From: Rubripirellula reticaptiva
Lineage (GTDB): Bacteria > Planctomycetota > Planctomycetia > Pirellulales > Pirellulaceae
Assembly: GCF_007860175.1 (NCBI RefSeq)
Contig: NZ_SJPX01000002.1
Coordinates: 1,302,001-1,366,000 of the forward strand
Length of the DNA stretch: 64,000 bases
Reading direction: 5' to 3'
Positions 49,359 through 64,000 of the stretch are shown here, piece after piece. The number at the start of each line of letters is the position of its first letter. Position 1 is the stretch's first letter. Made by a program: the position numbers and the translations under genes. The notes beneath the pieces were generated by a model, which searched no databases, had not been told where the DNA came from, and saw nothing but the letters and a program-made list of their open reading frames with translations.

Positions 49359-50738
49359 TTAGTAGGTAAAGATCGTATCGATTCCGAACGTGGTTTGGTC
49401 GCCAGAGTTGTCTTCCAACAAGGCGAAGTCAGCGGCGGCCAGACGGTTCTTGTTGCCGTCCACCCAATCCCAACGAATCTCGGGGCGAACCATCACGTTG
49501 GCGTGAGGCTGGACATTCAAGCCCAACGTCATCGCGTAAACGTCGTAGTCACCGATCGCACCGGCCGGCAAGCCGTAGCCAGCGCTGTCGGCTTGAACTT
49601 GCCACCATTCAAAACGGGTGCCAACTTGAACGTAGTCGTTGATCGTGCGGAACAGGTACTGGTTGATATCGAACGTTTCGCGATCGGTATTGCCAGCGGC
49701 ATCTTCAGTGTCAAGCAAGTCCGTTTGGAAAACGTAACTCAGCTTTTCGGTCAGTTGAACCTGTGCGACCGTCGACGACATGAAGCCTCGTTCGGACCGT
49801 CCAGCCCGGTCATTGAAACGACCAGCGATCAACGTCGAAGTGATGTTGATGTCGTCGGTCAATTGAACGGTTGTACCGCCCATAACTGAGTCACCGTTGT
49901 CATCAAATCCGCTGTCCCAGCCCATCACGTAGCCGCCGAACACGTCGACATCTTCGCTCATGCTGTACGTGATCATCGCACCGGTGTGCGTGAACGGCTC
50001 AGAATTGTACATCGTGTAAGCGTGGCTATAGAAGAAGTTGCCAGTCGCCGGCACGACTTCATAACCGATGGCGGTAAAGAAGTGTCCGACCTTGACGGAC
50101 CAGTCGCCGTAGCCGGCTTCCAAATACACCTGAGGCAACGCATGTCCATAGTCGGGGCCATTGTCCCAGCCAGTATCCCAACTGCCGGTATCGACACCAA
50201 AGGCTTGAGTGTCAGGACCGTCGGTACCGTAGAGGTAGTCAATGCGTCCGCCGATGTCGAAACCGCCTGATGTGTCGATCGCCTTTTCGGCGTACACCCA
50301 TGCTTGGTGCAGTTGGTACTCGTCTTTGCGGCTGTTGAACGACGACAAGTTCTTGTTGTGGTATCCCAGTTGGGCCCATCCGCCCATCGAAATTCCACAG
50401 GCTTCGCCGAGAATTTTGTAGGGATCGCCAAGGCAGCTATCGTCGTTAAGGATGCCTTGATCAAACAAGCTGCCATCACCGCAGTCGCCATTTCCGCAAC
50501 CGCTGTCGCAGGTTTCCACCGGCATGCCGCAGTCGCCGCTGCCGCACCCGCCGGAACAGGATCCGTCGGGCGATCCGCAATCACAGTAGCTGACCTGGGA
50601 AACCCCGGATCCGACAGATTCAAATCCGTACGAATCGTCCGCGGGCGACTGCCCCCAAGCGTTCGAATCGGATACGCCGGCGCCGATGACAGTGCCAGTA
50701 CAAAGGGCGGCGAGGAACGCCAATTTGCTAAGTCTCAT
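49359..50738 (-). CDS. Outer-membrane beta-barrel porin-like protein, Cys-rich N-terminus (copy 1)
   Basis: 459 residues from the ATG at 50738 (MRLSKLAFLAALCTGTVIGA), a signal peptide. A Cys/Gly-rich segment at about 45-110 holds ten Cys (CDCGSPDGSCSGGCGSGDCG). The rest is a beta-barrel of the planctomycete BBP2 type with alternating aromatic strands, such as FDIGGRIDYLYGTDGPDTQ and VYLEAGYGDWSVKVGHF, ending in Phe-Thr-Tyr (TIFTY), a typical barrel end. It is paralogous to the next upstream gene, with long near-identical stretches. Probably a passive porin or surface protein. Confidence 0.82.
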   Translation of the reverse strand: MRLSKLAFLAALCTGTVIGAGVSDSNAWGQSPADDSYGFESVGSGVSQVSYCDCGSPDGSCSGGCGSGDCGMPVETCDSGCGNGDCGDGSLFDQGILNDDSCLGDPYKILGEACGISMGGWAQLGYHNKNLSSFNSRKDEYQLHQAWVYAEKAIDTSGGFDIGGRIDYLYGTDGPDTQAFGVDTGSWDTGWDNGPDYGHALPQVYLEAGYGDWSVKVGHFFTAIGYEVVPATGNFFYSHAYTMYNSEPFTHTGAMITYSMSEDVDVFGGYVMGWDSGFDDNGDSVMGGTTVQLTDDINITSTLIAGRFNDRAGRSERGFMSSTVAQVQLTEKLSYVFQTDLLDTEDAAGNTDRETFDINQYLFRTINDYVQVGTRFEWWQVQADSAGYGLPAGAIGDYDVYAMTLGLNVQPHANVMVRPEIRWDWVDGNKNRLAAADFALLEDNSGDQTTFGIDTIFTY

Positions 50739-50980
50739 TCGTCCTGGACTCCCATCCATGTTTCATTGCCGGCGTTCTTGTTTGGTTAGCACCGGGCTGC
50801 TGCAACAGTCATCGGCTCGCGCTTTCGTCAAAATCCAACCTTCCCGAAAAAGCCAAATAACCGAAACCACCCGTTTTAACACTCGCTGGTAAAGTTTGCC
50901 GGTCAGGAGACCTTTCGCGGCAGGCGGGCGGTAGACCGCAGATGAATCAGGACGCAATCACCGTCTGGATCAAGCCAATA

Positions 50981-51017
50981 AAAAACCCGGCCGCCCTTTT
51001 TCAAGGGCGGCCGGGTC
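50981..51017 (-). terminator. Terminator of the second beta-barrel gene
   Basis: ACCCGGCCGCCCTT (50986-50999) pairs with AAGGGCGGCCGGGT (51004-51017) across a 4-nt loop, followed on the minus strand by six T (50986-50981). It lies 103 bp after the stop codon at 51121. No gene in 50739-51120. Confidence 0.88.
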
Positions 51018-51120
51018 GTTGTTTAGCAGAAGAGATCACACCACCTGAGATGCCGAGAACGTCGGGGAGAATCGCTTGGGCCTCCCTCTGTGACCTTTTC
51101 GACTGAGATTCGGCAAATGC

Positions 51121-52419
51121 TTAGAACGTGAAGATCGTATCGATTCCAAACGTTGTTTGGTCAGATCCGTCTTCCAAGCCGGCGATTTGATCGTCGTCCC
51201 AGTCCCAACGGATTTCAGGTCGAACCATGACGTTGGCGTGCGGCTTGTAGTTTGCACCCAAGGTCAAAGCGTACACGTCGCTGGCATTTCCGGCGGCCAA
51301 GTCAGCATTCCACCACTCGAAACGTCCACCAACTGCCCAGCAGTCGTTAAGCGTCTTGATCAGGTACTGGTTGATGCCGAACGTTTCACGAACGGTATCG
51401 CCAGCCACGTCTTCAGTGTCCAAGTAATCGCTTTGGAAAATGTACTGGACGCTATCGCTAACGGCATAGTCAGCGATGATCGAGTGCATGTATCCACGCT
51501 CGTCGGCACCGTACCGGGCTTCACCAAAACGACCGAAAGTGGTCGTGTAGATCAAGGTCAGATCGTCGGTCAAACCGGCCGAGAAACCACCCAAGAACGC
51601 GTCGCCGTTATCGTTAAAGCCACTGTCCCAACCCGTGGTGTATCCACCCCAAATGGTCAGGTCATCGCTTGCATTGTAGGTCGCCAAAGCACCGGTGTGC
51701 GTGAAAGGCTCGCTGTTGTACATCGTGTAAGCGTGGCTGTAGAAGAAGTTTCCGGTCGCGCCAACGACTTCCCAACCAATGATGGTGTAGAAGTTACCGA
51801 GCTTGACCGACAGGTCTCCGTAACCAGCTTCCAAGTACAACTGTGGCAGTGCATGACCATAATCAGGACCGTTGTCCCAACCGTTGTCGTAGCCTGTGCC
51901 CGTACCGAATGCTTGAGTGTCTTGCGAGTCAGTACCGTACAGATAGTCGATACGACCACCGATATCGAAACCATTGCTGGTGTCGATCGCCTTCTCGGCG
52001 TACAACCAAGCCTGCTGCAACTGCAACTCGTCGGGACGGCTGTTGAACAGTCCGTTACCCTTGCTGTGGTAGCCCATTTGGACCCAACCGCCAGCCGACC
52101 ATCCACAGTGTTCGCCGAACAAAGTGTAGGGGTCGCCCAAGCAGCAATCGCTGCAGCTACCCAAGTCGGCCAAGCCGCTCAAGCAGCTTCCCGAATCGCA
52201 ACCGCTGTCGCAGCCCATCGAGCATCCGCCGTCACAGCTATTATCGCCGCAACCGCAAGAGGTGTCGATTGACTCGCAACCGCAAGCTGGCTCGCCGCAG
52301 TCGCAAGCTGCTGCACAATGCGAAACCAATTGAATATCGTTTGTCTGATCTGCAAACGCGTTGCCGGCGTAGGTACCACAAGCAAGCGCAGCGACCAGTG
52401 CTAATTTACTAAGCTTCAT
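51121..52419 (-). CDS. Outer-membrane beta-barrel porin-like protein, Cys-rich N-terminus (copy 2)
   Basis: 432 residues, signal peptide MKLSKLALVAALACGTYAG. Sixteen Cys lie between residues about 33 and 105, many as CGC, CDSGC and CSMGC. The barrel shares FNSRPDELQLQQAWLYAEK, FDIGGRIDYLYGTDS and NFFYSHAYTMYNSEPFTH with copy 1, so the two arose by tandem duplication. It ends GIDTIFTF, a barrel-assembly-type terminal Phe. Each copy has its own terminator, so they are separately transcribed. Role as for copy 1. Confidence 0.83.
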   Translation of the reverse strand: MKLSKLALVAALACGTYAGNAFADQTNDIQLVSHCAAACDCGEPACGCESIDTSCGCGDNSCDGGCSMGCDSGCDSGSCLSGLADLGSCSDCCLGDPYTLFGEHCGWSAGGWVQMGYHSKGNGLFNSRPDELQLQQAWLYAEKAIDTSNGFDIGGRIDYLYGTDSQDTQAFGTGTGYDNGWDNGPDYGHALPQLYLEAGYGDLSVKLGNFYTIIGWEVVGATGNFFYSHAYTMYNSEPFTHTGALATYNASDDLTIWGGYTTGWDSGFNDNGDAFLGGFSAGLTDDLTLIYTTTFGRFGEARYGADERGYMHSIIADYAVSDSVQYIFQSDYLDTEDVAGDTVRETFGINQYLIKTLNDCWAVGGRFEWWNADLAAGNASDVYALTLGANYKPHANVMVRPEIRWDWDDDQIAGLEDGSDQTTFGIDTIFTF

Positions 52420-52959
52420 TGCTATTTAACTCCCCAGTTATCCGTTTTGGGTTGCCGCAAAAACGGCTCGTTTGAAATGGGCCCGACCGATCCATCTTGG
52501 ATCGACGAGATCAAAGGAACACTCCTTTGACCGGTTGCTCGTTGTCAGTGTCATCCGCCGATCTACTGGCGACTGGCTATCCAACCCACGATCTGTCATC
52601 GAAAGTATTCATCGGAGTCTCTTTCACGTCATGCGAGGCAATACCGCCTGACATTCCGCAAATCAATCCAACGCCGCGCTACTTCTAAGCATCGGAAGGG
52701 TCGCACCGAATGATCGGCGAATTCCCGTCGGGAAAGGTCCACTCGTTAAGAAAGAAGCCCGACTTCGGTAAGCTGTACCGATTAGCGGAACTATACGACG
52801 AGCGTGCACACGGGGGTCACCAAGCCACCGCTTGGTCAACGGCCCTACCGAACTGCTCGAACTTGCGTCAAACTGGGTGATTCAGGCGTTCCCGCACCAA
52901 CGTGCCTCGCCTGACAGTTGATCGAGCCTGATAGTTCCCTGACCAATGTGATTGCTCCT
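52420..52959. other. Intergenic region between beta-barrel gene and ftsY, with inverted repeat
   Basis: 540 bp. TCAAAGGA (52511-52518) and TCCTTTGA (52523-52530) form an 8-bp dyad separated by ACAC, 92-111 bp upstream of the barrel gene start. A second short stem, TTCCC/GGGAA (52722-52726 and 52730-52734), is nearer ftsY. No gene seen; presumably the promoters of both genes are here. Confidence 0.5.
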
Positions 52960-53922
52960 ATGGCGTTCTGGAATTCCAAGAAGACCGAAGACAAGACCCC
53001 CGAGCCAGAAACCGGCGTGTTTTCGAAAATGCGAAACGCGCTGACGAAAACTCGCCAGGCGCTCAATACCGACATTCGAGACCTCTTCAAAAGCGAAGGA
53101 CGCCTGGTCGACGACGAATTCCTTGGCGAACTGTTCGCGCGTCTGATCGGCACCGACATGGGTGTGTCGTCGGCCGAAGCGGTCCGCGACGACATCGGAC
53201 GCCGCTTTCGGGCTCGGGTGGTCCACCTTCCCGATGTATTGGACTCGATCACCCAACAGACCAGCGAACGATTGTCGCAAGAATCCACCGATATCCAATT
53301 TGCCGAATCTGGCCCCACCGTGATCCTGGTCGTTGGGGTCAATGGCAGCGGCAAAACGACCTCGATCGGCAAACTGGCCTATCACCTGCATTCGACCGGT
53401 CACAAAGTGGTCTTGGGCGCTGGCGATACTTTCCGAGCCGCTGCGGTAGAGCAGTTGACTGTTTGGGCCGGCCGCATCGGATGTGAAATCGTGACCGGCA
53501 AACCCGAAGCCGATCCGGCCAGCGTCGCTTTTCAAACCGTCGAAAAGGCCGTTGAAATGGGCGCCGACGTTGCCATTATCGACACCGCCGGTCGACTGCA
53601 GACGCAAACCAACCTGATGCAGCAACTCGACAAGATTCGCCGAGTGATTGGCAAAAAGATCGAAGCGGCGCCGCATGAAGTCCTGCTGGTACTCGATGCG
53701 ACCGCCGGACAAAACGCAATCAGCCAAGCCCGTGGGTTCAGCGACGCAGCCGGCTGTACCGGAATCGTATTGTCGAAACTGGACGGATCCGCCAAAGGCG
53801 GCGTGATCTTGCCGATCCGCGAACAGTTCCAATTACCGGTCAAGTTTGTCGGACTCGGCGAAGGAATCGAAGACATCGCCAAGTTCGACGCCGCATCGTT
53901 CGCCAAAGCACTTTTCGAATAG
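52960..53922 (+). CDS. ftsY: Signal recognition particle receptor FtsY
   Basis: 320 residues from the ATG at 52960 (MAFWNSKKTEDKT). N-terminal charged segment and N domain, then the SRP GTPase G domain with G1 GVNGSGKTT (near residue 125), DTFRAAAVEQL, DTAGRLQTQTN and SKLDGSAKGG, ending in FVGLGEGIEDIAKFD. The A domain is short compared with E. coli. It docks SRP-bound ribosomes at the membrane for co-translational targeting. A weak ribosome site; an in-frame GTG lies 12 nt upstream. Confidence 0.96.
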   Translation: MAFWNSKKTEDKTPEPETGVFSKMRNALTKTRQALNTDIRDLFKSEGRLVDDEFLGELFARLIGTDMGVSSAEAVRDDIGRRFRARVVHLPDVLDSITQQTSERLSQESTDIQFAESGPTVILVVGVNGSGKTTSIGKLAYHLHSTGHKVVLGAGDTFRAAAVEQLTVWAGRIGCEIVTGKPEADPASVAFQTVEKAVEMGADVAIIDTAGRLQTQTNLMQQLDKIRRVIGKKIEAAPHEVLLVLDATAGQNAISQARGFSDAAGCTGIVLSKLDGSAKGGVILPIREQFQLPVKFVGLGEGIEDIAKFDAASFAKALFE

Positions 53923-53968
53923 ACGGCAAGGTTGGATTCGTTGACGCACCGTCCCCGACGACGAACAA

Positions 53969-55498
53969 TCACTCACTCTCTGATGCGGTTTCCGCCGCAT
54001 TTGACTCTGGCTGATGAAACAGTCGGTCGGTCGACACCGCTTCCAATTCCCTGTCACCTTTGGCCATCAAGAGCTCTAGCACCTGGTCGCCCTCGTCTTC
54101 GTAGAATTCGATCCGAATCGGATGTAACCCTGCCTGCAGATCGACCCAGTCGGTCCGGACGATCGGCGCGTGATTCCCGTTGTTGTCGATCAACAACTCA
54201 TCATGCACATACAGCTTCGAACCGTCGTCCGAACGTAGACCAAGTCGATAGACGCCCGCATGATCCACTTTCAACAGTCCTTCGATCAACAACTCGTAGT
54301 GATCCTCTTGTGACAAAGAATCTGGTTTAGGCCCGACGACTGTCATGATCGTTGGCGGTCCTTCGGGACGTTGACCCTCATCAAGCGGGTTTGGCAATCG
54401 AGGATCGTACGGCGATTGTCGACACAACAAACCTGGCTCCGTCGCCGCGACCTGTTGTCCCGGCCGTCCAGTCCGCTGGCTAAGCTTGATCGATGCCGAC
54501 ATCGTTTCGTCCCCGCGCCGAATCCCCAGCGTGCACTGATCGCCCGGTCGCCAATCGAACCGAGTGAACTCCCAATCAATGGGATCGCGGAGTCCACGCC
54601 CACCAACAGAAATGATTTGATCACCAGGTTGGATACCGGCAGCCGATGCGGGCGATTCACCGGCAACTTCGCTCACCACGACGTCTGCCAATTGCGGATC
54701 GATCGTAATTCCGCTGATGTAACGGTGGCGCAGTTCACTGTTGAGAATCGCCGGGATAGAGTGCCGGATTGTTTTCAGTGGCAATGCAAAGTGGACGCCT
54801 TCTTCGCCCGGAATTCCGCTAACAGCCATTCCGATCTGTTGTCCCAACAGATTGACCAGCGGGCCACCTGAATTGCCCGGATTACTGGCCGCATCGAACT
54901 GCAACATTTCGTCAAACGCGGTCGACGACTGCGTCGCCAGCGCCAGCGGATTGACCCCCGTGAAAGCGACCGCTGACAAAATCCCCTGCGTTGCAACAAT
55001 CCCACGCCCGCCCGGGCTGCCAATATTCAAAACAGTTTCCCCCATGCGAACGTCCGCTTCCACGCTTAGCCGAATGAAGTCCGGCGGTAAATTCGCCCGC
55101 GGATGCGTCGGAGCACCGGGTCGATGGAGCGCCTGCTCACCCAGCTTCAAGATCGCCACATCAAACTCGGGCATGGTTCCGATCAACGACGCACGAAGCG
55201 GCGGACGACCGCCTAGCAGAACGATGTGATCCTTCATCACCACATGTTTGGCTGTCAAAACGTAACCGCGAGGGTCAATCACCGATCCGCTGCCGGTCCC
55301 ACGCCGACCGTCGTCAAACGCATAAACAGCCGCAACCGCCGGTTGTGATTTCTCGATCGCAGTCACCGTCGCTGATCGCCGCACATCAACAACCTGAAAA
55401 TCATCTTGCGAGTAACCGATCGGCATGCGACCAAACAACAAAGTCAAAGCAAACACAAACCCCAAGAACGGTCGGTAGCGAAAGGAAAATAACAGCAT
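53969..55498 (-). CDS. HtrA-type serine protease with PDZ and PA14-like domains
   Basis: 509 residues from the ATG at 55498 (MLLFSFRYRPFLGFVFALTLL), a signal or anchor. Trypsin-like domain with the triad His (LTAKHVV), Asp (PEFDVAILKL) and Ser (FDAASNPGNSGGPLV). One PDZ domain follows at about 270-350 (AGIQPGDQIISVGGRGL). The last about 110 residues resemble a PA14 domain: GLRSDDGSKLYVHDELL and LQAGLHPIRIEFYEDEGD. DegP-type proteases do not usually carry PA14, which binds carbohydrate. Periplasmic quality control or processing, maybe on glycans. Convergent with ftsY. Confidence 0.87.
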   Translation of the reverse strand: MLLFSFRYRPFLGFVFALTLLFGRMPIGYSQDDFQVVDVRRSATVTAIEKSQPAVAAVYAFDDGRRGTGSGSVIDPRGYVLTAKHVVMKDHIVLLGGRPPLRASLIGTMPEFDVAILKLGEQALHRPGAPTHPRANLPPDFIRLSVEADVRMGETVLNIGSPGGRGIVATQGILSAVAFTGVNPLALATQSSTAFDEMLQFDAASNPGNSGGPLVNLLGQQIGMAVSGIPGEEGVHFALPLKTIRHSIPAILNSELRHRYISGITIDPQLADVVVSEVAGESPASAAGIQPGDQIISVGGRGLRDPIDWEFTRFDWRPGDQCTLGIRRGDETMSASIKLSQRTGRPGQQVAATEPGLLCRQSPYDPRLPNPLDEGQRPEGPPTIMTVVGPKPDSLSQEDHYELLIEGLLKVDHAGVYRLGLRSDDGSKLYVHDELLIDNNGNHAPIVRTDWVDLQAGLHPIRIEFYEDEGDQVLELLMAKGDRELEAVSTDRLFHQPESNAAETASESE

Positions 55499-55865
55499 CA
55501 CGTATTGTCTCTCCGAAAGGGCACTACCGCTGAAAGCCCCGATTCTAAGTGACAGACGACCACCAAGTACGACCGACAACAAGAAACCAGCACACCGTCA
55601 TGCTGGATAAGGCCAAGAAGCGAAACAAACTACCCACCACAATCACCAATCGCAGTCCCCAAAACAACAATTGCTTCGATTGAACTATCGAAACACAACT
55701 CGCGTGATGTTATTTTGGGATGCTGATAATGTAAGAGCCCCCAACACCTCGAGAATGCAATTCTGAATTCACCGGTCTCGCAGCTCGACTGGCGGGCAGC
55801 TTCCCTGACAAACCACCGCTGAGCGACTTCTTCGAGACGCACGCACCGCATTCAAGAGCAAATCT
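55499..55865. other. Divergent intergenic region
   Basis: 367 bp between the HtrA gene and the exported hypothetical. AT-rich in part. A GATAAT at 55725-55730 could be a -10 box for the gene at 55866, but no good -35 is found. No gene seen. Confidence 0.4.
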
Positions 55866-56822
55866 ATGAATCGCCCCGTCGCAATCATCTTCTTTCTTGT
55901 CGCAACAACTCCTGGAACAATTCGCGCGGACGATGCGAGACAAGATCTCTTCAGTCGGATCGACAATTTCTTGTCAAACTGGCAAGAAGGATACGTCGAC
56001 ACGAGTGTCATTTGCCAAGGCGAAACGGCCGACATCAAAGTCTGGTGGTCAGGTGAATCCGAGCGGCGGGAACGCATCGATCGAGAGAGCAACCCAAAAT
56101 TAAATGATCGACGATCGATCGAACTACGTTCAAAGAACGCCTACTGCGTCACTGCGCCCGATCTGCTGACCGCCCGATGCGGTCGTCTGATCGATGGACG
56201 CGATCCCCTGCCCATTGTGCGTGTTCGTCCGAACGAAAGCTGGACCGAAGTCCTGAACAACAAATCGACACGACGATGGATTGAAGAACCGCGATTAGCC
56301 AACACAGTGCTGAAACTGGCCGACGACAGCTTCTCGTTCCTTCAGGGACGCCAACAAAGTGACGTTGATCAAGTCGCAGTGGCCCTGCGTGATCAGAAAG
56401 AGCTCGCCGAACTTGTTATGGATGGTTACGTTTCACGCAGCGTTTTCAATGCAAACGGGTTGCTTGTCCACACTTCACGAATTGGCAACGTACCCGCTGA
56501 CCAGCTAAATAAAGTCGACGTTCAGGTACTGTGGACCTCTGCGAACCCACCTGCACTCAAGAAGCTTGTTCGCCGGGTTAGCCGGGATGGCGGCAAGACG
56601 TTTTCAATTGACCTGCAAGTCAATGTTCATGCGGCGACCAACAAGCTTCCCAAAGACGCTCCGTCACTCTCGATTCCGCCTGATGATTTGCCGTTCGGCA
56701 CCCGTGTAACGGACTCGCGACAAAAGGTTACCAAGAAGTTCTATGTTGGTGGCAAAGAGGGGGAAGCCCACCACATGATGATTCACGCAGCGCGTGAAAT
56801 GAAGAAACTCGATTCTCAGTAA
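55866..56822 (+). CDS. Exported hypothetical protein
   Basis: 318 residues. Signal peptide [21 protein letters not shown]. The mature part is mixed alpha/beta, with two Cys near each other in sequence ([16 protein letters not shown]) and a positively charged C-terminus ([16 protein letters not shown]). The layout of paired strand blocks recalls outer-membrane lipoprotein-sorting (LolA-like) folds, but no clear motif. It lies 14 bp before the C39-like/DUF1559 fusion and is probably co-transcribed with it. Confidence 0.62.
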
Positions 56823-56836
56823 GCGAGCGAAATTTG

Positions 56837-58414
56837 ATGATGCGTTGGCTATGCCTCTTCCTTAGCTTCACTCTACTCGTGGCGGTCTACACGCGTGTGC
56901 CAGCGACCGAACCACCGCTACGTCAACGATCAAACATCGATTTCAAGAATTCCAATTTGTACGGCAACAGCGGCGCTCGGTGTCTCTACATGGCATTGGC
57001 AGCCAAATCGAAGTCGCCACCTACTTTCGCGGAATTCTTAGCGAGCGACGAAAACTACACAAAACAAACGATGTCTCTCGCATCTCTTTCGGATTCGGCA
57101 AGCAAGCATGGGCTTGAAAACCGACTGATTTCATTTGATACCGGTGCGAATCTGCCGACATGCGAGTACTTGATCGCACGGTTGCAAAGTGAAGACCACT
57201 TGGTGATTCTGAGCCAAAACAATCGAGGGCTATGGTTCTACAACGATCCGCCTCTGCGCCCCGAACTCCTGTCGCCAAGGCATCGAGAACGCCTTTCCGG
57301 TGACGCCCTCGCGATCGGGCTAGAACCGCCAACGATTTCGCGTCGGAGCTTAGGTTCAATCGTGGGCACGCTGACTCTTTTAGGGTTGGCGTTTTGGTGG
57401 CGCAAGCGTCGCCGGCTAACGAGCGAGGTATTCGCGCAGCACCATGGTTCACCCAACAGCCTAGGTTCCGGCTTTGATTCGACTCAATCGCGAAAGCGAG
57501 ATGCGTTCACTTTGATCGAGCTATTCGTATGCCTTGCCATCATTGCAATACTAGTGGCGTTGCTGACGGTGTCCCTTGGGACTGCTCGTGAGGCCGCACG
57601 ACGGACTCAGTGCTTGAACAATTTGCGTCAGCTCGGAATGGGACTGAAACAGTTCGTCGATCGCACTTCTGGTGTGCTTCCGAAACAACGGCATATCGGT
57701 TCTCGCAACGATGGTCCTTGGTACCAAATGGCCGATGTCTTGCAGATTCAATCGATCGCCGACTCACTTCGCATTGATGCAGGGGAGCGTTTAAGTCTTT
57801 CCAATTCCAACGTCCCCCTTCTTTCTTGCCCGAGCGATGGTGTCGAGGGATGCAACTACCGGACTTGTGGATCGTCCGGCTACTCGCTGTATGGACGTCA
57901 ACGCCCGTTTCCGACTCCGACCGATTCAGGAAACGGCGTCATTCCGATGATTGATGGGGATCACTATTTGTCGAAGGTACGCGATGGCCTGTCCCACACG
58001 GTCTTCACGTCCGAACGTCTGATAGGGGGATTGGGACGCAAGCGAGCCGAAAGCGCCTGTAACACAGGCATATTGCCACAAGACTATTCCGATTCTCCGC
58101 CCCACGATGCCTTGATTGAAGTGTTGGCGGCGAATTGGAACGTGTTTGAAATGGCCCCTAGTCCCGGAAAGTTTTGGTACCTAACCGGGCTTGGTCAGAC
58201 GGCATACAACCATGCCGCATCGCCTAATTCGCTCTACTCGGGGACCTTTTCCGGAAGCTTGTTAGAGACGGCCGCAATGGGAATCGTCTCGCCCACCAGC
58301 AACCATCCCGGCGGCGTTTGCATCTGCCGACTCGACGGCAGCGTGGACTTCATTTCGGATCAGGTAGACCAAGACGTGTGGGTAGCTCTCGCCAGCATTG
58401 ACCAGCAAGACTGA
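56837..58414 (+). CDS. C39-peptidase-like domain fused to DUF1559 pseudopilin domain
   Basis: 525 residues (ATG 56837; the frame opens with TTG at 56834). Residues 1-20 form a signal or anchor. Residues about 35-145 resemble the C39 peptidase fold: [12 protein letters not shown] in place of the usual DCGxNALYxxL, and DHLVILSQN where a catalytic His stands. The Cys position is Ser, so activity is doubtful. A second helix at 165-185 ends in WWRKRRR, then comes a prepilin-type motif [17 protein letters not shown] (about 222-238). The DUF1559 body follows, with [17 protein letters not shown] and [16 protein letters not shown]. Alternating topology would place the prepilin motif cytoplasmic. Confidence 0.75.
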
Positions 58415-58438
58415 CCAGCAAGACTGACCAGCAAGACT
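58400..58438 (+). repeat. 13-bp tandem repeat over the stop codon
   Basis: GACCAGCAAGACT occurs at 58400-58412, 58413-58425 and 58426-58438, then a degenerate copy (GTTCAGCAAAATT). The stop codon of the fusion gene (TGA 58412-58414) lies at the first junction. Length 13 is not a multiple of 3. Confidence 0.85.
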
Positions 58439-58952
58439 GTTCAGCAAAATTACCCTAGCAGGTCTATCGAGCACTCCGCGATCCAACCGATCGTACTTGA
58501 GCGCAACCGCGGCCGACTCAAAATTTTCCGCTGTATTGGCATGTAACCTAGCGTGCGAAGCAAGATGGGTTCGCCGAGTGGGTCTCGACGAAGAGCGAAC
58601 ACAGCGTGCTGCCGGAACCAGTGCGGCTATAGACTCGGATTCTGCCTGAGCTCTGGTGGGAACAGACGGCGAAATCGTTACGACCGGTTCAATTGGTTCG
58701 CGGCAGGCGTGCATTAGGTTTGACGGGCGAAACGATCCGCGATTGGGGCTCGTCATCTTCGGGGCGACGTACTTTTTCTGACGGAAGTAAACCGGCGGGC
58801 TACAGGTCCGAAATGCGTTCGTTGCTATTCGGCATTTCTAGACCGGTGCACTTCTATTACTTGCCACTCGGCCTCATTACAGGCTGATTCGACAACGTTT
58901 GTGCTGCCATTTCCCGGCAAGCTGGTAGTGCGAGAACCTGGTAGCGGTCGTC
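58439..58952. other. Intergenic region without a gene
   Basis: 514 bp between the fusion gene and the kinase gene. A 64-codon frame at 58693-58887 shows no family character. No terminator or clear promoter recognised. Confidence 0.5.
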
Positions 58953-61505
58953 ATGACAAACTTTGATTCAACCACCGACGACCTAACGAATCGCCCGGAC
59001 GATCCATCGAATCGCAGCGATACAGATCCACGAACGCGCGTTGAAGACTCTTCGAAAAAGAGTCGCGTACGATCGCGCCGAAAACGATCGCCAGCGGCAG
59101 TCGATCAAGATCAGATTCAAGACGCAACCCTTGCCTCGGGTTCGGGACAACCGTCAAAATCAATCGCCACAACGGGCGACACCGTAGCGACACCGCGGTA
59201 TCACAACATTGGCGAAGTGGGCAGGGGCGGCTGGGGCATCGTGGAAAAGGCGATCGATCGCCAGCTCGATCGCGAAGTTGCGGTGAAACGATTTACCGAT
59301 GCGGACGATGTGACCATTGATGAACGTCGTCGATTCTTGCACGAAGCCAAAGTCACCAGCCAACTTCAGCATCCCGGGATCGTGCCTGTCCACGAATTAG
59401 GTGACCAGGAAGGTGCCTTTTATGTGATGAAGTTGCTTGACGGCATCACGCTGCAAGAGTTCGTCCATCGCCATCACAACGATCGACAGCGTGACCAAAC
59501 CCAAAACCGATTTCAGTTTGGCGAATCGTTGGAACCGTTGCTGCAGCGGTTCGTCGATGTCTGCAACGCCGTTGCTTACGCGCATCAACGTGGCGTCGTT
59601 CATCGTGATTTGAAACCGTCGAACGTAATGATTGGCGAATTCGGTGAAACGGTAGTTTTAGACTGGGGATTGGCCCAGACCACAGGCATGTCCGCAGCGT
59701 CACCCCAACCGCCACATAACGGACGCGGCCTCAATTTTAGTGCCGAAGTTTCTTCGCTGACCGAGCCTGACGGAACGGTTGTGGGAACGCCCGCCTTCAT
59801 GTCACCCGAACAGGCAGCGGGCGAAATCGCGGCGATCGGTCAACCTTCGGACATTTATTCCCTCGGCGTCATCCTCTATGTGCTGATTGCGGGACGCCAT
59901 CCCTACCAAGGGCAACCCGTCGAAGAAATCCTGAAACAGGTCAAAGCAACAACTCACCCGAGTCTGCGATCGTTACAGCCTCTTGCACCGTCGTCGCTGG
60001 TTTCGATCGTTCAAAAGGCAATGTCGGCGAATCCTAACGACCGTTACGCAACTGCCGAACTGCTGGCGCAAGACGTACGGCGATTCATCGCTGGCGACGC
60101 AGTATCGGTACACCAAGAAACAGCGATTGAACGAAGTATTCGCTGGTGCCGGCATCACCAAGGGATCGCCGCAACCATCGCAATCTGCGTCTTGACTTTG
60201 ACGATTGCTGCGATCGGCTTCGGCATCGTGATCAAGCAAGCACATCGTGCCGAACGAATTGCCCGCATCGAAGCTGAACGGTCGCACCGAGAGGCAATTT
60301 TTAGCCTAGGCGAAGCTCGCGAGGCAACCGATGTATGGCTGACTGAACTCAGCGGATCGCTTCAGTTCTATCCCGGCATGAAAAAGGTACAGGCGGAGTT
60401 GCTTCAGAGGGCAATCGACCAATACGACCGTATCGAGAAGCAGAACGTTAAGTCGTCGAATGTTCAAGTACTGCCTGAAGCAACCGAACTCGCCCCGTCC
60501 GATACATTTCTTCGACACACCGATCGAATGGCCATTTTGGAACGAGCCAAGGAAACATTACGGCTTGGCGATCTGTATCGACTAACCGGCAAAAAAGCTC
60601 AAGCCCTCGATCACTACCTCGCTGCTGAGCGACTGCTAAAGGTTCACGCAACGAGTGACCCGGCATGGAAAATGACGCCAGATTCGTCGACCGGCATTAC
60701 GGCAACCAACCTCCGAATTGACTACTTTCTTGACTCACAATTTGAATTAGAACAAATCAACTCGCTGATCGGAAAATTGCTTATCAAAAACACGATGGTC
60801 AGCGACTCGTCATCCGCAGACTTTCCGTCGTCAGACCAGATCGCAAGGGCAAGGCGATGGTTACAACAGAAAACTGAACCTCATTTTGACGAAACCGACA
60901 CAGCGATTGGCAAACCGCTTGACGGCTTTGCCGCTCGCACTGCCTCGGCACTCGTTCGAATGGAGTTGGCTTTGCATTCAGCGAACGCTGCGACTCAGCC
61001 TGACTGTGAACATTTCGAGCAGGCCATCCGTTTAGCACGTTGGTTAGCCGAGCGCAGCGGAACTGTTGGCAATCGCCGACTATCCGAAACGATTCAAACC
61101 GAAGCTTGCCGTCAACGAACCAAAGCCGGCCAGCACCAAATTGCGGTACATCTCTGGACCGTCTTAATCGATGACTTGAGCCACTGGTTGAAGACTGCCC
61201 CTGATCGTATCGACTATCTGCAGACACTGGGATGTGCGTTGTTGCAGCGAGGCATTTGTTGGATGGCAATAGGCCAACATGATGATGCGTCGAGTGATTT
61301 CGAAAGTTCGATCGTTAAGATCAAGCTCGTTCGGCAGTTGACGGACAACGACAGGTTTTGCCAAGAGCAACTGACAACCGCGGAGACCAATTTGGCCCAG
61401 TTGCTGGGCACCGGCAAGACAAACACCCGCGAATCAATCGAACATACTCAGGCACCAACGTCCACGTTCCAGACGAAAGCGACGCAGGACCGCAGCAACC
61501 GGTGA
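58953..61505 (+). CDS. Transmembrane Ser/Thr protein kinase
   Basis: 850 residues. An Arg/Lys-rich disordered N-terminus is followed by a Hanks-type kinase domain (about 83-380): Gly loop GEVGRGGWGIV, Lys112 (VAVK), HRD with Asp219 (VHRDLKPSN), and D237-W-G in place of DFG, common in planctomycetes. Activation-segment motif SPEQ. One membrane helix at about 404-427, then an extracytoplasmic helical, TPR-like region (ALDHYLAAERLLK; ILERAKETLRLGDLYRLTG). It phosphorylates Ser/Thr targets; the FHA protein downstream is a plausible partner. Confidence 0.92.
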   Translation: MTNFDSTTDDLTNRPDDPSNRSDTDPRTRVEDSSKKSRVRSRRKRSPAAVDQDQIQDATLASGSGQPSKSIATTGDTVATPRYHNIGEVGRGGWGIVEKAIDRQLDREVAVKRFTDADDVTIDERRRFLHEAKVTSQLQHPGIVPVHELGDQEGAFYVMKLLDGITLQEFVHRHHNDRQRDQTQNRFQFGESLEPLLQRFVDVCNAVAYAHQRGVVHRDLKPSNVMIGEFGETVVLDWGLAQTTGMSAASPQPPHNGRGLNFSAEVSSLTEPDGTVVGTPAFMSPEQAAGEIAAIGQPSDIYSLGVILYVLIAGRHPYQGQPVEEILKQVKATTHPSLRSLQPLAPSSLVSIVQKAMSANPNDRYATAELLAQDVRRFIAGDAVSVHQETAIERSIRWCRHHQGIAATIAICVLTLTIAAIGFGIVIKQAHRAERIARIEAERSHREAIFSLGEAREATDVWLTELSGSLQFYPGMKKVQAELLQRAIDQYDRIEKQNVKSSNVQVLPEATELAPSDTFLRHTDRMAILERAKETLRLGDLYRLTGKKAQALDHYLAAERLLKVHATSDPAWKMTPDSSTGITATNLRIDYFLDSQFELEQINSLIGKLLIKNTMVSDSSSADFPSSDQIARARRWLQQKTEPHFDETDTAIGKPLDGFAARTASALVRMELALHSANAATQPDCEHFEQAIRLARWLAERSGTVGNRRLSETIQTEACRQRTKAGQHQIAVHLWTVLIDDLSHWLKTAPDRIDYLQTLGCALLQRGICWMAIGQHDDASSDFESSIVKIKLVRQLTDNDRFCQEQLTTAETNLAQLLGTGKTNTRESIEHTQAPTSTFQTKATQDRSNR

Positions 61506-61701
61506 AATCATTGCGACCGATCCAGACGAGCAAACTGTCGGCCAATTCTTATCGGCCGACTAAATGCATTCGAGAGCGTCGCTCACGATGGCAAGGGGTG
61601 ACCAATCTTTTCGATAGCAATTCAATGCACCGGCGTCAGCATTCAGATCCGGCGTCTCTTTTTACGCAGAAACAGCACCACGCAAAGACAGCATCAAGAT
61701 C

Positions 61702-62670
61702 ATGACGAACATTGCCCCTACGCCAAACGACCTTGTGACCGAAGTCGCCTTGAATCAACAAGCTGTTTCGACAAGTAACGCAGCGACGCCACATGAAGAG
61801 GCAACGCTTCGGCGAAAACCGACGACGCTTCCGCAAACCACCGAAAACGAAAGCTGCCTTGTTCAAATTTATCCTGCCGATGTAATCGCAGGAATGCTGT
61901 TATTAGAGCAAGCTGAGTTCTCGGTCGGACGCTCGCCCGATGCTGATCTATCGCTTTCGGACAGCAGTGTTTCGCGTCAACACGCCAAACTGATTCGCAG
62001 CGAAAACAGCTACGTCATCCGTGATCTTGGCAGCACGAACGGAACCCTGGTCAATGAAACTCTTATCGATACCGATTACACGCTGCGCACCGGCGACACG
62101 GTTCGCATCGGCAGCTTCCTGTTTCGATTCCTGTCGGCCGGTTCAGTAGAAACGCAGTATCACGAAACGGTCTATAGCGCACTAACACGTGACGCGCTGA
62201 CCGGAACAATGAACAAGCGGTACCTGTTGGAATCGATGAATCGCGAGGTATCTCGTTCATCACGATCGGCAACGGAGTTGGCGGTGATCATGATTGACAT
62301 CGACTTCTTTAAGTCCGTCAACGATACCCATGGCCATTTGGTCGGCGACCAAGTGCTGCAGACGTTCGGCAAACGAGTCGGTGACTTATGCCGATCTGAC
62401 GATCTGCTTGCACGATATGGCGGCGAAGAATTCTGTTTGATGCTGTCTGCCACCGGACGCGAAGAAGCGTTCGAGATGGCGGAACGATGTCGCCGAGCCG
62501 TCGGCGAGAAAGCCTTCGAGACGTCTGCCGGCGATCTGACCGTCACCGCTAGTTTCGGACTTTCGATTTTGGATCCCAAAAAACCGACCACGTCCACTGA
62601 GTTGCTAGAGGCCGCCGATCAACAGCTGTACCATGCCAAACATGGTGGCCGAAACCGAGTGTGCGGCTGA
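61702..62670 (+). CDS. FHA-GGDEF diguanylate cyclase
   Basis: 322 residues. An FHA domain at about 72-143 (FSVGRSPDADLSLSDSSVS, GSTNGTLVNE) recognises phosphothreonine. A GGDEF domain follows, with DIDFFKSVNDTHGH, the active motif GGEEF (240-244) and an I-site RxxD at 231-234 (RSDD), five residues before GGEEF. It makes c-di-GMP from GTP and should be feedback-inhibited. It follows the Ser/Thr kinase by 196 bp in the same direction, so the kinase may switch its activity through the FHA domain. Confidence 0.92.
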   Translation: MTNIAPTPNDLVTEVALNQQAVSTSNAATPHEEATLRRKPTTLPQTTENESCLVQIYPADVIAGMLLLEQAEFSVGRSPDADLSLSDSSVSRQHAKLIRSENSYVIRDLGSTNGTLVNETLIDTDYTLRTGDTVRIGSFLFRFLSAGSVETQYHETVYSALTRDALTGTMNKRYLLESMNREVSRSSRSATELAVIMIDIDFFKSVNDTHGHLVGDQVLQTFGKRVGDLCRSDDLLARYGGEEFCLMLSATGREEAFEMAERCRRAVGEKAFETSAGDLTVTASFGLSILDPKKPTTSTELLEAADQQLYHAKHGGRNRVCG

Positions 62671-63044
62671 TCGCTGATCACCAGTGGGATCGAGACGGTT
62701 TGGCCACAAGGTTTCGCAACTAAATCAGCCCTGAATGTTGGTCCTGGATGTCACCGCGTCAGTCCTTACAACGTGGGGACCAGAACGGCTTGGCGGCAAG
62801 CCGATCGCCATGAAACGAGAGTGTGCCCGCCGGGCACACCCAATCAAGGCCGTCGTCGAAGCAAATTCACCCCGCGACCACGGTGGTGACGGCATCGCGA
62901 TTAGGTTGCGCTGAAATTCACCGGAGCAACCCGTGCCGTTGTGGGGAACGGCCACTAACACGCCAAGGGTCCCGGATTACCCGTAGGTCCGTACCGGCCA
63001 ACTTTTTGCTAGGATTCGTTGCAAACCCAACTCGAGCCCCGACG
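62671..63044. other. Intergenic region with short palindrome
   Basis: 374 bp between the cyclase and pta. GTGTGCCC (62821-62828) and GGGCACAC (62832-62839) form a perfect 8-bp stem with a 3-nt loop and no T run. No gene seen. Confidence 0.5.
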
Positions 63045-64000
63045 ATGCCTGAAAGTCTTTACCTAGCAACGAACGAGAACGCGACTGGCAAGCGAATGAT
63101 CGCGCTCGGCGTGATGGAACTGGCAGTTCGACGGTTCAATCGCGTCGTCTTCTTCCGCCCTGTGGTGCGTGAATCCGCGGAATTGGATCAGAGCATTCAA
63201 TTGATGCGAGCACGATACAAATTGCCGCACACGGCAGGGCAGATGTCGGGTGTAACACGAACCGAAGCACGTAAATTATTGGCCGAAGACCGCTACGATG
63301 AACTGATCCAACGAGTCCAACAGCGTTTCAAGGCAATTCAACAGGACGCGGATTTCGCAGTGGTCGAAGGCACTAGCTTTCAAGGCTTGGTGCCGGAGCT
63401 TGAGTTTGAATTGAACGCAGATTTTGCGGTCAATTTCGGCTGTGCGATCATGCCGGTCTATTCGGCGCATGGCAAATCGGTGGGTGATTGCGTGCAGTCG
63501 ATTCAGATTGGCAACGATTCGTTGACCGATCACGGCGGACACGTTTTGGCAACGATTGTCAATCAAATCGATGACGACAAGGCTAAATCGATTCGTGAGG
63601 CTTTTGAGGAAACGAAGCTTGGCGGTGACGAGCCGATCTATTTCATTCCCGAGTCCCCATTACTGCGCCAGCCTACGCTTCGCGAGATTCAAGTCGGCTT
63701 GGACGCCAAGGTGCTCAATGGCGATGAAAAGTCTCTCGACCGCGAGGTAACTCGGTTGAAAGTTGCCGCCATGCAGTTGCCTGGTTTTTTGGAACGGTTG
63801 TATTCTGGGTCGCTAGTGATCACGCCGGGCGACCGCAGTGACATTGTTGCCGGATGTGCGCTGGCGTGCTTGAATTCCGATGGCCCATCACCGGCCGGCA
63901 TGGTGTTGACCGGCGGCTTGGCTCCGCCCGAGGCCCTGCTGCGACTGTTGCGATTTCCTGGCTGCTTGCCAATCCTGACGACGACCGACGACACGTTCAC
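63045..64000 (+). CDS. pta: Phosphate acetyltransferase, N-terminal part (cut by window end)
   Basis: 318 complete codons, running off the window. Starts MPESLYLATNENATGKRMIAL, the P-loop-like AAA_26 (BioD-like) domain found at the N-terminus of long-form Pta, with DADFAVVEGTSFQGLVPELE after it. The DRTGG-type domain then begins (LVITPGDRSDIVAGCALACL). The C-terminal catalytic PTA_PTB domain would lie beyond 64000. Pta converts acetyl-CoA and phosphate to acetyl phosphate. Family call from domain pattern; the catalytic end is not visible. Confidence 0.88.
   Translation, partial: MPESLYLATNENATGKRMIALGVMELAVRRFNRVVFFRPVVRESAELDQSIQLMRARYKLPHTAGQMSGVTRTEARKLLAEDRYDELIQRVQQRFKAIQQDADFAVVEGTSFQGLVPELEFELNADFAVNFGCAIMPVYSAHGKSVGDCVQSIQIGNDSLTDHGGHVLATIVNQIDDDKAKSIREAFEETKLGGDEPIYFIPESPLLRQPTLREIQVGLDAKVLNGDEKSLDREVTRLKVAAMQLPGFLERLYSGSLVITPGDRSDIVAGCALACLNSDGPSPAGMVLTGGLAPPEALLRLLRFPGCLPILTTTDDTF

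Follow-up and report, generated by a model that had tools for sequence, protein, structure and literature searches.

A prepilin motif in a typical DUF1559 pseudopilin is N terminal, behind a short leader, but the window (the whole 64-kb stretch of DNA that was analyzed) encodes a protein in which the motif falls at residues 222-223, behind an exported domain. Where did such a protein come from, and what could it do? The sequence-only reading of this locus had described a C39-peptidase-like domain ahead of a DUF1559 pseudopilin in one frame, with an internal prepilin motif about 220 residues in and an exported gene 14 bp upstream, and in all these respects it was right. The frame is open for 525 codons, and 14 nt separate its start from the stop of the upstream gene at 56822 (Table 1). 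Pfam placed DUF1559 (PF07596) at residues 249 to 512 (85.5 bits; cutoff, 23.3) and N_methyl at residues 219 to 243 (22.1 bits; cutoff, 21.2); TIGR02532 of NCBIfam matched at 19.4 bits (cutoff, 16.3). Hydrophobic peaks on a simple hydropathy scale were at residues 1 to 17, 171 to 187, and 229 to 245, and a net charge of +4 follows directly after the second. There was no in-frame ATG, GTG, or TTG between residue 184 (in helix 2) and residue 226 (in the motif), so the pseudopilin half has no common start codon and short leader of its own; a separate translation start for it was thus ruled out. A gene for prepilin peptidase is present in the same genome, on contig C4 at 432766 (PF01478, 65.2 bits). 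A 13-bp tandem repeat of 3.8 copies (TGACCAGCAAGAC) spans the stop codon of the fusion gene (window positions 58399-58447).

Table 1. Features of the fusion locus in window coordinates
Feature	Coordinates	Strand	Basis or remark
Gene 1 of the remnant cluster, for an exported, possibly LolA/LolB-like protein	55866..56822	+	Homologue in G069
Fusion ORF, 525 aa	56837..58414	+	C39-like domain behind a signal segment, then helix 2, prepilin motif, and DUF1559 pseudopilin
Signal segment, residues 1-24 (end set by eye)	56837..56908	+	Hydrophobic peak at 1-17
C39-peptidase-like domain, ~residues 42-165, without the catalytic Cys	56960..57331	+	Held-out HMM, profile versus PDB, AlphaFold2 model and Foldseek
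Ser45 (AGC), at the catalytic Cys position	56969..56971	+	Alignment and column tally
His121, catalytic His position, retained	57197..57199	+	Alignment and column tally
Asp137, third active-site position, retained	57245..57247	+	Alignment and column tally
Second membrane helix, residues 171-187, then WRKRRR	57347..57397	+	Hydropathy scan
Internal prepilin motif AFTLIELFV, residues 222-230; predicted cut A222/F223	57500..57526	+	N_methyl above the Pfam cutoff
Third helix, pilin type, residues 229-245	57521..57571	+	Hydropathy scan
DUF1559 domain, residues 249-512, cluster-specific branch	57581..58372	+	Pfam, tree, leave-one-out profiles

Residues ~42 to 165 of the fusion are a C39-fold domain. 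Direct searches with residues 1 to 218 were empty: Pfam returned no family at an E value of ≤5, so the gathering score of PF03412 was not reached, and phmmer against the PDB chains gave chance matches alone (best E value, 0.35). Kinship to C39 could therefore be demonstrated solely via relatives. When 22 genomes of the genus were scanned with the N-terminal part (E ≤ 1e-3), only the window's own genome matched; a scan of 241 genomes of the family added one strong match, in genome G069 (E = 1.3e-11). The G069 relative is a 198-aa protein consisting of a C39-like domain and one helix, with the Cys intact, and its gene lies nine bases downstream of a homologue of the window's upstream gene. Used as the query, it gave weak matches in six further genomes at an E value of ≤0.01, including C39-helix proteins in G127 (6e-4), G121 (0.0015), and G123 (0.005) that were all above the PF03412 cutoff. 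That cutoff (22) was passed by 7 of the 9 relatives' C39 domains tested (32 to 58.7 bits); the two below it, from G069 (14.2 bits) and locus L139 (19.1 bits), have the layouts nearest to that of the window.

A profile of eight relatives, built without the window row, scored the window protein at an E value of 3e-15, and still at 1e-9 when the nearest relative, G069, was also removed; the best of 2000 shuffled sequences had an E value above 1. The nine-row family profile, which includes the window, matched PDB entry 6mpz, a double-glycine protease, at an E value of 3.3e-12. An AlphaFold2 model of residues 30 to 196, made from a three-row alignment, was of middling quality (mean pLDDT, 66.9; pTM, 0.57). 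Nonetheless, Foldseek ranks 1 to 15 were all C39 or C39-like domains or transporters containing them; 3zua and 7sgr were among the fold matches, and the best was 3k8u (E = 1.6e-3; probability, 1.00), with none at an E value of ≤1e-3. The C39 assignment of the sequence-only reading is thus borne out by the held-out profiles and the fold matches; a protein without any match to the papain/C39 fold, the outcome named beforehand as counting against it, did not emerge from these checks.

The search for the two parts as separate neighbors, which had also been suggested, found relatives in which a Cys-bearing, exported C39 protein is encoded apart from the DUF1559 gene. The fullest clusters contain a Cys-rich peptide ORF and genes for an exported protein, a C39 protease with a single C-terminal anchoring helix (C39-helix), a DUF1573 protein, and a pseudopilin of the DUF1559 family. 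In G069, G127, G124, and G034, the gene for the exported protein is followed by the C39-helix gene, the third gene, and DUF1559; this order holds also in G121 and in part in G123, two genomes in which a single protein combines C39 with the third-gene part. G103 has no third gene, its C39-helix protein and pseudopilin being encoded by separate, neighboring genes. The third gene or part is DUF1573 above the Pfam cutoff in G127, G121, G123, G124, and G034, and leave-one-out profiles recovered 5 of the 6 third genes. The exception was that of G069, which had no Pfam match and was missed by the profile of the other five, so it is a positional counterpart only and is not shown to be DUF1573. A second set of genes arranged in this way is present in G069 (L238), with C39 at 38.2 bits (Pfam), a first gene recognized by eye, and a DUF1573 part of 21.3 bits, which is under the Pfam cutoff.

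The gene upstream of the fusion corresponds to the first gene of these clusters. Its G069 homologue lies at the same place (22% identity over 318 positions; E = 4e-20), and a profile of seven relatives' first genes, built without that of the window, found the window gene at an E value of 3e-5. Altogether, 6 of 8 first genes were recovered by a profile of the others (window, G069, G127, G121, G123, and G103); those of G124 and G034 gave leave-one-out E values of 1.2 and 26, and homology between them and the others was not found. Pfam, NCBIfam, and PDB profiles gave no identity for the upstream gene, and there was no PDB sequence match. A low-confidence model of a relative's first-gene protein (L123; mean pLDDT, 48.2) best matched LolB (9tpm; E = 8.6e-3), with several LolA structures among the lower-ranked matches; going by this model, the first-gene protein is possibly LolA/B-like.

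We tallied the partners of 68 C39 frames, which were drawn from part of the profile matches and include ABC transporters. By local profiles, 2 were fused to DUF1559 and 14 to DUF1573; in 28 of the 68, DUF1559 was either fused or encoded on that strand at a distance of up to 3.5 kb, DUF1573 was so placed in 30, and 26 had none of the three partners. The local lol, d73, and d59 profiles were built from cluster members, and so match those members by construction; the co-location probability takes no account of the choice of loci by kinship. Some of the C39 loci had other architectures. In six genomes of the same order (family f17), C39 domains with a QC[AS]HW motif are fused to a DUF1573-like part in proteins of ~500 to 550 aa (L225-L230, L234). 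At L138, L145, L239, and L242-L244, a C39 domain is followed in one protein by a rhodanese-like C-terminal region, identified by Pfam for L138 only and by eye in the rest. An 884-aa frame, L137:5298-7952, combines an extended exported region at its N terminus, a stretch that resembles a lipobox by eye, and C39-like and DUF1573-like parts, both under the Pfam cutoff, so that several cluster parts are present in one chain.

In G127, G124, G034, and G121, a short Cys-rich ORF with a hydrophobic start lies 5' of the first gene (motifs, for example, LLSSEQSSKIRGG, VTSDVAESIVGGG, LTKDESLKLIGG, and VKLSDAECALVKGS). The double-glycine-like motif is internal to the cluster's Cys-rich peptide, usually behind a signal segment. 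G069 has a peptide-like ORF (DLSEAEASAVLGGQQPC) without a signal segment in that frame, and the G123 contig stops short of the expected peptide position. NCBIfam contained no family for the seven GG-type ORFs compared with it, and Pfam contained none for the five compared with it (both at E ≤ 0.1). A double-glycine pattern was found in 15 of 1904 ORFs of 80 to 260 aa in 69 stretches around C39 matches and in 1 of 766 in control DUF1559 stretches, which are a smaller set (281 versus 707 kb) (one-sided Fisher P = 0.033); the pattern was devised with several of the peptides already known, it has two forms that catch different members, and the broader form misses the G124, G034, and G069 ORFs. Because the protease is of the C39 family, the peptide has a GG-type motif, and the two are neighbors, the ancestral C39 protease would most likely have acted outside the cytoplasm and trimmed the peptide at this motif.

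Other short Cys-rich ORFs with hydrophobic starts were seen near C39 domains at L128:5294-5620, L128:6081-6518, L127:8135-8632, L133:4152-4652, L230:200-751, and L240:702-1088. Their motifs include VSISEASALYGAG, LTNVELVAIRGG, and LSHEEMVNVIGG, and they are a candidate family of exported double-glycine-type peptides.

The pseudopilin half of the fusion also belongs with the clusters. We built a tree of 86 DUF1559 domains, of which 10 came from C39 clusters and 76 from the window's own genome and genus; the 10 cluster pseudopilins fell on one side of a branch with a support of 100/98. Within this group, the window pseudopilin was placed with those of G034 and the second cluster of G069 (95/89), a placement that carries a long-branch warning for the window and the G069 second-cluster member. 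The L139 pseudopilin was the earliest of the ten to branch, a position consistent with two independent fusion events. When each member was left out in turn, 9 of the 10 cluster pseudopilins scored better with the cluster profile than with that of the general set; for the window pseudopilin, the scores were 204.6 bits (cluster profile from the remaining nine) and 143.1 bits (profile of the 76). L139 was the exception (182.4 bits on the cluster profile versus 194.2 on the general profile). None of the 60 others tested (of the 76; not leave-one-out) preferred the cluster profile. The tree and the profile scores rule out that the pseudopilin half came from the general DUF1559 set.

What, then, sets the window apart from its relatives? 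Its kinship with the cluster is clear, as are the loss of the catalytic Cys and the absence of the other cluster genes nearby. The Cys column was scorable in 55 of the 68 C39 frames: 53 had Cys, G103 had a gap, and the window had Ser. Among the 13 frames in which the column was unaligned, twelve had a C[GAS] motif by eye and one, L152, did not. The His column was His in 67 of 68 frames, and the Asp column was Asp in 62 of 68. The replacement of the catalytic Cys by Ser that had been read from the sequence is therefore real, Ser45 (codon 56969-56971) being the sole Ser in the scorable rows. To judge from its active site, the window domain is no longer a cysteine protease, and the simplest role for a cysteine peptidase that has lost its Cys is that of a binding domain.

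It is improbable that the domain is instead a live protease with a Ser nucleophile. Ser, His, and Asp are all in the right columns, a Ser-His-Asp arrangement could work in principle, and AGC is one base away from TGC; but Ser is found in the window alone, against Cys in nearly all scorable relatives, and no candidate substrate ORF was found near the fusion gene. The double-glycine pattern, which also misses three known peptides, was found in 0 of 160 ORFs in the window, and no peptide candidate was seen by eye among the ORFs of 40 to 250 aa that overlap positions 55400-55900 and 58400-58960.

At the window locus, only the first gene and the fusion are present; no match to the local DUF1573 profile was found in window positions 50001 to 64000. 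A peptide-like ORF, a third gene or part, and the Cys are all present in five clusters (G069, G127, G121, G124, and G034). G103, like the window, is without peptide, third gene, and Cys, yet its C39 and pseudopilin are unfused. For the joint absence of all three at two loci (the window and G103) versus five, the Fisher P value was 0.048, in a tiny sample and with kinship ignored; counted without G069, two loci versus four is 1 arrangement in 15. The fusion looks to be the last stage of a series of changes: the window lineage would have lost its peptide gene and the third gene between C39 and DUF1559, the protease would have died as its catalytic Cys became Ser, and the C39-helix and pseudopilin genes would have been joined into a single frame, the order of the steps being one that we infer.

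That three things are missing at one locus, and that the N-terminal part has no match (E ≤ 0.001) in 21 other genomes of the genus, would also be expected of a decaying remnant, with the peptide lost, the locus no longer under selection, and the fusion a step on the way to loss. We consider decay unlikely: a frame of this length has acquired no stop, the upstream gene is intact, and the His, the Asp, the prepilin motif, and the DUF1559 domain have all been retained.

The search for the same fusion elsewhere, another suggested check, found one of the same layout at a second locus in G123. L139 encodes a 541-aa C39-helix-prepilin-DUF1559 protein with the Cys retained; a GG-type ORF precedes it, and a DUF1573 gene (34.7 bits) follows it. 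Since L139 retains the Cys, the peptide, and the DUF1573 neighbor, fusion does not require loss of activity, and its presence in another genome of the family argues against an artifact. The occurrence of two separate genes in most relatives could still raise the suspicion that an assembly or sequencing error had joined them in the window. Such an error is extremely unlikely, given that the assembly has 13 contigs and is 99.93% complete, that a separate pseudopilin would have no start codon, and that the intervening gene is wholly absent, which a one-base error would not explain. The window ORF is a real fusion of two genes that are kept apart in the relatives' cluster.

Internal prepilin motifs are not confined to C39 fusions. 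The window's own genome has 61 PF07596 matches, 54 of which fall in the 50 stretches examined or in the window. Among the 54 DUF1559 frames there (local profile; some partial or repeated), three have a prepilin motif that lies past residue 200 when numbering begins at the earliest possible start: the window fusion, L250, and L249. L250:453-2252 (contig C5, near 171400) encodes a 599-aa exported protein with a PEP-CTERM helix, RRKRQR, a prepilin motif, and DUF1559, the same layout as that of the window fusion. L249:995-2749 (minus strand; contig C3, near 953653) has a DUF2306 membrane protein ahead of a DUF1559 pseudopilin, with the motif at residue 232. Other genomes have two MauE-DUF1559 fusions (L138 and L143). 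The charge after the last helix before the motif is +4 to +8 in the window, L139, L250, L249, and L143 and +2 in L138, and this positive charge predicts a cytoplasmic prepilin site in all six fusions. A 959-aa frame on the minus strand, L158:414-3293, contains a methyltransferase, a glycosyltransferase 2, a prepilin motif (~residue 658), and DUF1559.

Prepilin peptidase acts on the cytoplasmic side. By the charge rule, the C39-like domain of the window fusion would be outside, helix 2 would run out to in, the linker and the prepilin site would be inside, and helix 3 would run in to out; the charge pattern fits this topology, which had been proposed in the sequence-only reading. Prepilin peptidase would then cut between A222 and F223 and produce two membrane proteins in a 1:1 ratio, a membrane-anchored pseudoprotease and a pseudopilin. 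The pseudoprotease would keep its ancestor's binding role, and the C39-like domain would probably hold or recognize a peptide or a partner for the pseudopilin. All told, we think it likely that the C39-like half is a repurposed pseudoprotease, probably split from the pseudopilin by prepilin peptidase.

The fusion might instead stay uncut; the prepilin motif would then go unprocessed, and the pseudopilin would remain permanently tethered to the C39-like domain. At 222 residues and with an exported domain in it, the leader would greatly exceed that of PilB (7 residues), and the extra module of PilB-type pilins comes after the pilin, not before it (PMC8179133). We nevertheless regard an uncut fusion as rather unlikely, because the motif is above the N_methyl cutoff, because the net +4 charge after the preceding helix would put the site in the cytoplasm, where prepilin peptidase works, and because the motif has been kept in five other DUF1559 fusions behind membrane helices. 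As to layout, the modular type IV pilins, such as PilB of Streptococcus sanguinis, likewise combine a functional module and a pilin in one gene, but the PilB module is C terminal to the pilin and displayed (PMC8179133), whereas the C39-like domain of the window precedes the site and would be cut off. With typical DUF1559 proteins, the window fusion has the prepilin motif and the DUF1559 domain in common; it differs in the position of the motif, behind an exported domain, and in belonging to a separate, cluster-specific branch.

In the amyloid (Fap) system of Pseudomonas, the periplasmic C39 peptidase is FapD (PMC5557850). The likeness to FapD would lie in a stand-alone C39 domain with a Sec signal, acting outside the cytoplasm, in a dedicated export cluster (PMC5557850); the putative Sec-type signal of the window protein is a hydrophobic N-terminal segment on the simple hydropathy scale. 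FapD needs its Cys, as a C38A change abolishes secretion (PMC5557850), whereas the window domain has Ser. The window domain also differs from FapD in its C-terminal helix, its fused pseudopilin, and its other neighbors.

The double-glycine proteases of the peptidase C39/PCAT type (PF03412) have a homologous fold, and the window domain's relatives adjoin ORFs with a GG-type motif; the window member, unlike PCATs, is exported and has neither an ABC transporter nor the Cys. The C39-like domain of T1SSs is part of a cytoplasm-facing ABC transporter, and HlyB is an example of a T1SS in which this domain is inactive. The window protein, in contrast, carries a signal segment and lacks an ABC part. 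In one subgroup of T1SSs, catalytically inactive C39-like domains are known (PMC5557850).

The pseudoprotease-pseudopilin fusion is derived from a planctomycete peptide cluster, and this cluster is new relative to the literature searched: no description of a peptide/C39/DUF1573/DUF1559 cluster was found there, most subscription papers and all bioRxiv preprints being outside its scope. DUF1559 proteins are very numerous yet unexplained in planctomycetes. Rhodopirellula baltica has 74 DUF1559 genes, called a solute-binding family there (PMC2754498), and Planctopirus limnophila has 68 DUF1559 paralogues, its biggest paralogue group, two of them essential (PMC10632474). As a tentative wider reading, somewhat doubtful in our own estimate, the clusters may represent an undescribed planctomycete system in which a C39 protease anchored in the membrane would trim a Sec-exported, Cys-rich peptide outside the cytoplasm, and a LolA/B-like carrier and the DUF1573 protein would pass it to a dedicated DUF1559 pseudopilus; internal prepilin sites would be general cutting points of polyproteins, the window gene being one case of several. 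Through this cluster, one branch of DUF1559 would be linked to the maturation of peptides by C39 proteases, a candidate substrate being encoded alongside, and the fusion raises the testable idea that prepilin peptidase may split polyproteins at an internal site.
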